The notes below the pieces were generated by a model. The model was not told the DNA's origin, ran no database searches, and was given only the letters and a program-made list of their open reading frames with translations. The translations under genes and the position numbers were made by a program. Below are positions 703-1,543 of a stretch of DNA of 37,440 nucleotides, in pieces. How positions within the stretch are numbered: the first letter of the stretch is position 1; each line of letters opens with the position of its first letter. Source of the stretch: Verrucomicrobiota bacterium (lineage in GTDB: Bacteria > Verrucomicrobiota > Kiritimatiellia > RFP12 > UBA1067); assembly GCA_022704145.1 (NCBI GenBank), contig JAKJGY010000023.1:1-37440 (forward strand). Reading direction: 5' to 3'.

Positions 703-1543
703 CCGCATCGCCGAGGCGGCCCCGGCCCCGCGCCTCAGCGGGAGCCCTCTCTTCGCAGGTTCAAACGGGTGGAAGGGGCGTGCCTGTTTCTCGACCGGCA
801 GGCCAACGCCGCGCTGTCGGACCGGACGAGGGCAGAGCCGGTTGCGAGGGGGCAAGCCTGGTAACCGGGGATTTGTAACCGGTAACCGGTAACCGGTAAC
901 TGGTAACTGGAAACTGGTAACTGGAAACTGGTAACCGGTAACCGGTAACCGGTAACCGGTAACCGGTAACTGGTAACCGGTAACCGGTAACCGGTAACTG
1001 GTAACTGGAAACTGGTAACCGGTAACTGGAAACTGGAAACCGGTAACTGGAAACTGGAAACCGGTAACCGGTAACTGGTAACCGGCAACTGGTAACCGGT
1101 AACCGGTAACCGGTAACCGGTAACTGGTAACCGGCAACTGGTAACCGGTAACTGGTAACTGGAAACTGGTAACCGGCAACTGGTAACCGGTAACCGGTAA
1201 CCGGTAACTGGTAACTGGAAACTGGTAACCGGTAACCGGTAACCGGTAACTGGAAACTGGTAACCGGTAACCGGTAACTGGTAACTGGTAACTGGAAACT
1301 GGTAACCGGTAACCGGTAACTGGAAACTGGAAACTGGAAACTGGTAACCGGTAACCGGTAACTGGTAACCGGCAACTGGTAACCGGTAACCGGTAACTGG
1401 TAACCGGTAACTGGTAACCGGTAACCGGAAATTTGGGGGTGCTGATCCGGGCGGGGCGCGGCTGGGTGGCGGACGTCGTCAGCGGCCACCAACACCCTGA
1501 ACTGAAGGCGATTGGGTGTCGGGCGGGACGCCGGGTTCGGCCA
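703..1543. other. Long intergenic stretch dominated by a heptamer repeat array
   Basis: There is no credible gene between the histidine kinase stop and the antitoxin stop. Bases 703-860 are ordinary GC-rich sequence with no recognised site. Bases 863-1435 hold the heptamer array and its boundary motifs. Bases 1436-1543 show nothing recognisable. Long reverse-strand frames exist here only because the repeat unit contains no stop codon on that strand. Confidence 0.7.
875..1427. repeat. Tandem heptamer array, 79 units in unbroken phase
   Basis: The consensus unit is GTAACCG with variants GTAACTG, GAAACTG, GAAACCG and GCAACTG. The array is 553 bases, exactly 79 x 7, with no insertion or deletion. 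Hand count: 39 GTAACCG, 22 GTAACTG, 12 GAAACTG, 4 GCAACTG and 2 GAAACCG. Shifting the reading phase to AACxGGy reduces everything to four words: AACCGGT (about 36), AACTGGT (24), AACTGGA (14) and AACCGGC (4); AACCGGA and AACTGGC do not occur inside. Both ends carry a related 13-base motif, AACCGGGGATTTG at 863-875 and AACCGGAAATTTG at 1423-1435. The reverse strand is open in all three frames, giving a false LPVTGYR-type peptide repeat. The function is unknown. Confidence 0.95.

Follow-up and report, generated by a model that had tools for sequence, protein, structure and literature searches.

The heptamer array and its edges

The window, the whole stretch of DNA that was analysed (37,440 nucleotides of contig JAKJGY010000023.1 from the Verrucomicrobiota assembly GCA_022704145.1), carries a tandem heptamer array in an intergenic region between convergent neighbours, of which the upstream ORF stops at 702 and the downstream, minus-strand ORF at 1544. 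The features of this region are as follows:

52-702, plus strand: C-terminal part of a histidine kinase (HisKA, HATPase_c), upstream neighbour, context only
856-876, plus strand: 5' edge of the array, degenerate in-register units GCCTGGT AACCGGG GATTTGT (best word match 5/7, 6/7 and 4/7), the last two holding the 5' boundary motif of the original prediction
877-1429, plus strand: heptamer array, 79 units in exact phase, the last being AACCGGA (TRF and direct decoding)
1423-1436, plus strand: 3' edge of the array, degenerate units AACCGGA AATTTGG, the originally predicted 3' boundary motif
1544-1816, minus strand: 90-aa ORF without Pfam match, overlapping the start of the BrnT-like ORF, downstream neighbour, context only
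1813-2094, minus strand: BrnT-like toxin ORF (Pfam BrnT_toxin E = 0.001, below the curated cut-off), context only

From its position, the 90-aa ORF is possibly an antitoxin. Rfam returned no match for the array or its neighbours in the window. The array was called by TRF at 875-1428 with a period of 7, 79.1 copies and 0% indels, as the sole array of its kind, and direct decoding of 877-1429 gave 79 in-phase heptamers over 553 bases with no indels, confirming the length and phase originally predicted. The decoded units are AACCGGT (36), AACTGGT (24), AACTGGA (14), AACCGGC (4) and AACCGGA (1). The rule that only the first four of these words occur holds for 78 of the 79 units and breaks at unit 79, where a fifth word, with A after C, forms one half of the very motif that had been predicted to mark the 3' end. 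With that one exception, the predicted coupling of the last position to the fourth (A after T, C after C) was borne out, positions 4 and 7 being coupled beyond chance (chi-square P = 4e-5). The two motifs described as matched boundaries both exist and both lie in register with the array (AACCGGG GATTTGT at 863-876 and AACCGGA AATTTGG at 1423-1436), the former preceded at 856-862 by GCCTGGT, which matches an array word at 5/7 positions; they are best read as worn, degenerate terminal units of the array itself. Elsewhere in this genome, short arrays are likewise preceded by worn units such as AATTTGA.

The four words are connected in a single chain, AACTGGA - AACTGGT - AACCGGT - AACCGGC, with one substitution per step. 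If each of the three substitutions arose once and whole units were then duplicated, exactly four of the six possible words and the coupling of positions 4 and 7 would result, and the coupling needs no special machinery. Copying of whole words, one of the mechanisms originally proposed, thus stands, whereas the accompanying exclusion of simple slippage does not: tandem duplication itself copies whole words, so that the coupling is no argument against slippage or unequal exchange. A simulation of duplication and mutation at chosen rates produced too few words to be informative, and a binary four-gamete count was set aside as meaningless for position 7 with its three alleles. Long repeated word strings were not in excess of those expected from a first-order Markov chain (P = 0.6), the longest repeated string in the array being 8 units (56 bases). 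Folding of the array yields a long hairpin with ACCGGT stems and A-A mismatches (z = -15). No second AACYGGH run, either as an inverted partner or otherwise, was found within the window.

Related arrays in the same genome and beyond

Many short solo AACTNGA runs are dispersed over the same genome, and a second long array lies at about 2324-2719 of locus L034 (G000:C386:9500-14500), directly upstream of a short-chain-dehydrogenase-like ORF; it is built from AACCGGT, AACCGAT, AACCGAC and AACCAGT and, unlike the window array, has phase breaks. The window array consists of head-to-tail, in-phase 7-bp units in an intergenic position, and its genome holds further scattered arrays with related words; on both counts it corresponds to the STRR (cyanobacteria) or long simple sequence repeats. 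Heptamer repeats as such are an already known kind, represented by STRR and by the TAACTGA and GGGAATC repeats. TAACTGA direct repeats are found in Beggiatoaceae, Cyanobacteria and Bacteroidetes in up to 43 copies (MacGregor 2015, PMC4679880) and, like the window array, are intergenic tandem T-AAC-NN-G heptamers, sporadic across phyla and present at multiple loci per genome. They differ in being one fixed word placed mostly directly upstream of start codons, whereas several related words occupy a convergent intergenic region in the window, where the words in the TAACTGA register read TAACCGG, TAACTGG and AAACTGG, not TAACTGA. No four-helix-bundle or S23p gene is mentioned in that article (PMC4679880). 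The GGGAATC repeats of Xanthomonas and Nostoc are described as G-quadruplex-forming, without mobile-element association (PMC4692102), whereas the window units contain GG pairs only; STRR and GGGAATC repeats share with the window array the dispersed intergenic tandem heptamers and a genome-specific word set.

Tandem runs of at least five units, a search for which had been proposed with the original prediction, were found as AACYNG heptamers in 24 of the 95 relatives, each with its own dialect, and a control pattern with the motif written backwards was far rarer in most of these. The word set is not unique to the window: the Longitalea loci L083, L125 and L187 use AACTGGT, AACCGGT and AACCGGC, and at least 117 stretches of genomes contain (AACYGGT)5, from phyla including Bacteroidota, Cyanobacteria, Verrucomicrobiota, Chloroflexota, Poribacteria and Pseudomonadota. 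When 398 Pseudomonadota were searched for (AACYGGT)4, only the seed Vibrio matched. A viral origin was considered and rejected: (AACYGGT)4 was present on only two viral contigs, neither with a gene for the four-helix-bundle protein discussed below, which phage records lacked as well.

S23p/4HB genes between inverted heptamer arrays

The strongest context of the window array, absent from the original prediction, is provided by inverted heptamer arrays that flank genes of TIGR02436 (S23p/four-helix-bundle, 4HB), the family of the ORF in 23S-rRNA intervening sequences (IVS). The starting clue was one heptamer run of the window's own genome flanking a small TIGR02436 gene, whose family has XCC0516 of Xanthomonas (2GSC) as its only PDB sequence match. 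TIGR02436 genes were found in 81 of 95 relatives and in 0 of 14 well-known control genomes. A period-7 array lies near 47 of 74 4HB genes in the 95 relatives, 22 of 27 in array-bearing genomes of other phyla and 20 of 27 in random Pseudomonadota; periods 5, 6 and 9-11 are nearly missing near these genes, and period 8 is present in the relatives. Backgrounds based on base coverage or on 215-nt windows overstate this enrichment because they include coding DNA, and the ends of other ORFs at the same loci were used as a fairer background. Against these ORF-end controls the period-7 enrichment at 4HB genes is smaller and clear (49/103 4HB ends against 27/188 other ORF ends, 29/46 against 16/57, and 25/49 against 5/59). 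Where both arms are present, they are inverted and share a dialect at 23 of 27, 9 of 12 and 6 of 6 loci, with permutation means of 2.3, 1.0 and 2.1, respectively, the last set being small and three of its six loci sharing one word. Inverted, dialect-matched arms around 4HB genes were also seen on plasmids of the cyanobacteria Calothrix brevissima, Nostoc sp. C052, Nostoc edaphicum, Geminocystis and Pseudanabaena.

Two further observations concern individual 4HB loci. At L240 (G060:C32:2936-6259), the 4HB element has arms of GGGAATC units, a heptamer known from Xanthomonas, where it was investigated as a G-quadruplex repeat. On plasmids of Anabaena sp. 90, Pseudanabaena galeata and Picosynechococcus PCC 7003 (L383, L384 and L385), 4HB genes are embedded in CRISPR operons, flanked by cas6 and cas4 on two of the plasmids and by cas10 and cmr3 on the third.

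In the window's own genome, nine TIGR02436 hits were obtained, and heptamer arrays lie near the gene at all of the four best-scoring (L220-L223); at L220, L221 and L223 the arrays on its two sides are inverted and agree in their words. The arms at L223 share two words with the window array, AACTGGT and AACTGGA; AACCGGT-rich arms were found at no 4HB locus of this genome. At another locus (L031, G000:C150:1-4000), a tandem duplication of about 1.1 kb lies beside a 4HB element, and several of the copies have heptamer arrays; suspected MITE-like pairs at this locus proved to be this duplication. Elsewhere, AACYGGT-like arrays lie directly next to 4HB genes in Poribacteria (L140), Nostoc (L141), Kapaibacterium (L144), Cytophagales (L150), Chitinophagaceae (L156), Verrucomicrobiales (L293) and Longitalea (L294). 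A 4HB gene is carried by 31 of 35 genomes with (AACYGGT)5, these being one per organism, picked from the match list and uncorrected for kinship, and by 5 of 6 Pseudomonadota with (AACYGGT)5 against 35 of 200 (P = 0.001). Array count and gene count correlate weakly to moderately (rho 0.36-0.37).

Presence or absence of a whole unit could be followed in one genus, that of G200, in which an array-4HB-array block (the L310 element) lies between two genes in 13 genomes, or 14 with G540 (L370), which keeps both arms around a largely deleted ORF. In 16 other checked genomes of the genus the same two genes enclose an empty junction of 39-98 bases, a pattern that is established for the L310 element, not for the window locus, and fits gain or loss alike. 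Arm length at the site varies between species. Both inverted arms of L370 have a period of 8 (GGCAGTAG), and relatives at the same site have TAGGCAG with a period of 7; the joint shift of the two arms suggests, from this one case, that arms are copied from one another or homogenised. Other copies of the element in the genus match it in the arms and ORF and nowhere else. Arrays of the same word also stand alone at many other places in the genus, including genomes lacking 4HB, 5 of 9 of which still hold arrays; array counts did not differ significantly between genomes with and without 4HB (P = 0.19). In the folded RNA of the L310 unit, the two arms pair with each other in a long stem (z = -8).

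One of the closest known systems is the 23S rRNA IVS with an S23p ORF known in Coxiella, Leptospira and Brucella; in Coxiella, two to three strain-variable GACAGAT heptamers precede the S23p ORF, and the IVS has 28-bp terminal inverted repeats (PMC4990558). Like the 4HB elements, these IVS have an S23p/4HB ORF inside terminal inverted repeats, with tandem heptamers at the 5' end (Coxiella) and a self-folding RNA (as in the L310 element), and the Coxiella IVS shows the general link between arrays and 4HB genes in miniature. They differ in sitting in 23S rRNA, whereas the nine element loci examined with Rfam lie outside rRNA and the window array has no S23p ORF or rRNA match. Such a general link was not found stated in the openly accessible papers searched. 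With REP/RAYT systems and MITEs, the 4HB elements have in common dispersed non-coding ends of a gene-bearing element, inverted around the gene; they differ in that their ends are tandem arrays of variable length and that no transposase-like gene is present. The 4HB protein is not known to be a RAYT.

Origin of the window array

Since the window contains neither a 4HB gene or 4HB fragment (TIGR02436 search) nor a second arm, its array is called a solo array and not a member of an element. On balance, it is probably a solo heptamer array of the type that forms the inverted ends of S23p/4HB elements, with the gene and second arm missing. Such an element would be a TIGR02436 gene between inverted, dialect-matched heptamer arrays, of which the 23S-rRNA IVS would be a special case inserted in rRNA; the window array would descend from such an element or have been seeded by its protein and, once present, would have grown through whole-unit duplication, the four words representing unit lineages that differ by single substitutions. 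This reading builds on what was directly observed, namely the array and its words, the four 4HB loci of the same genome with arrays, the two-armed architecture, the presence and absence within one genus and the solo arrays of the same dialect.

A serious rival, to which a substantial minority of the probability is assigned, is independent birth, in which a chance heptamer microsatellite grew by polymerase slippage or unequal exchange, unconnected to any element. Duplication with single substitutions accounts for the word set and the coupling on this explanation as well, and, according to Mrazek (2007) as cited in PMC4679880, heptamers outnumber the other classes of long repeats in most genomes. 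The 4 of 35 (AACYGGT)5 genomes without a 4HB hit indicate that such arrays can arise or persist without 4HB; among them is Mycobacterium lepromatosis FJ924 (L089, NZ_CP083405.1, 4278-4501), a natural counter-example with a 32-unit AACTGGT array. Against independent birth stand the presence of 4HB in the great majority of array-bearing genomes, the AACYGGT-like arrays that abut 4HB genes in several phyla, the dialect shared by solo arrays and element arms of one genus, and the rarity of the backwards-read control motif in most relatives.

Selection on a cluster of binding sites, through which a DNA- or RNA-binding regulator would act on the neighbouring genes, is very unlikely. The placement of TAACTGA repeats, for which a translational regulator has been proposed (MacGregor, PMC4679880), and the long ACCGGT-stem hairpin are in its favour; however, the window array lies in a convergent intergenic region and not upstream of a start codon, words and dialects differ between loci and genomes, and there is no known binding protein. 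The least probable of the explanations is that the array owes its length or order to misassembly, the source being a fragmented metagenome-assembled genome. The assembly comprises 415 contigs, the contig start lies 862 bases upstream of the array, and 553 bases exceed the length of a short read, but word variants interrupt the repetition, no repeated word string is longer than 56 bases, the genome has another long array of this kind at a different place (L034), and long heptamer arrays of similar type are present in complete genomes and plasmids (L089, L379, L384).

Beyond the window, it is tentatively proposed that S23p/4HB proteins, with host or other enzymes, might copy, spread and homogenise heptamer arrays; STRR, the TAACTGA and GGGAATC repeats and the window array would in that case all belong to one widespread element class, either as its arms or as its solo products, with the rRNA IVS as its known special case, a doubtful generalisation at present. 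Heptamer repeats were described independently in cyanobacteria, xanthomonads, Beggiatoaceae and others, and no origin has been agreed for them; S23p/4HB proteins are widespread without a known function. With the gene found between inverted, dialect-matched arrays in many phyla and one unit present or absent as a block, the origin of both becomes directly testable. By itself the window array is modest, its value being that of an entry point to the link between arrays and 4HB genes.

Further repeats were also noted in the window. Short period-8/16 repeats at 13309-13355 and 20902-20928 (CCATCATT; TGGAATGA) are similar in style to octamer variants of heptamer arrays, and a 92-bp unit is present twice at 16714-16898 with 91% matches.
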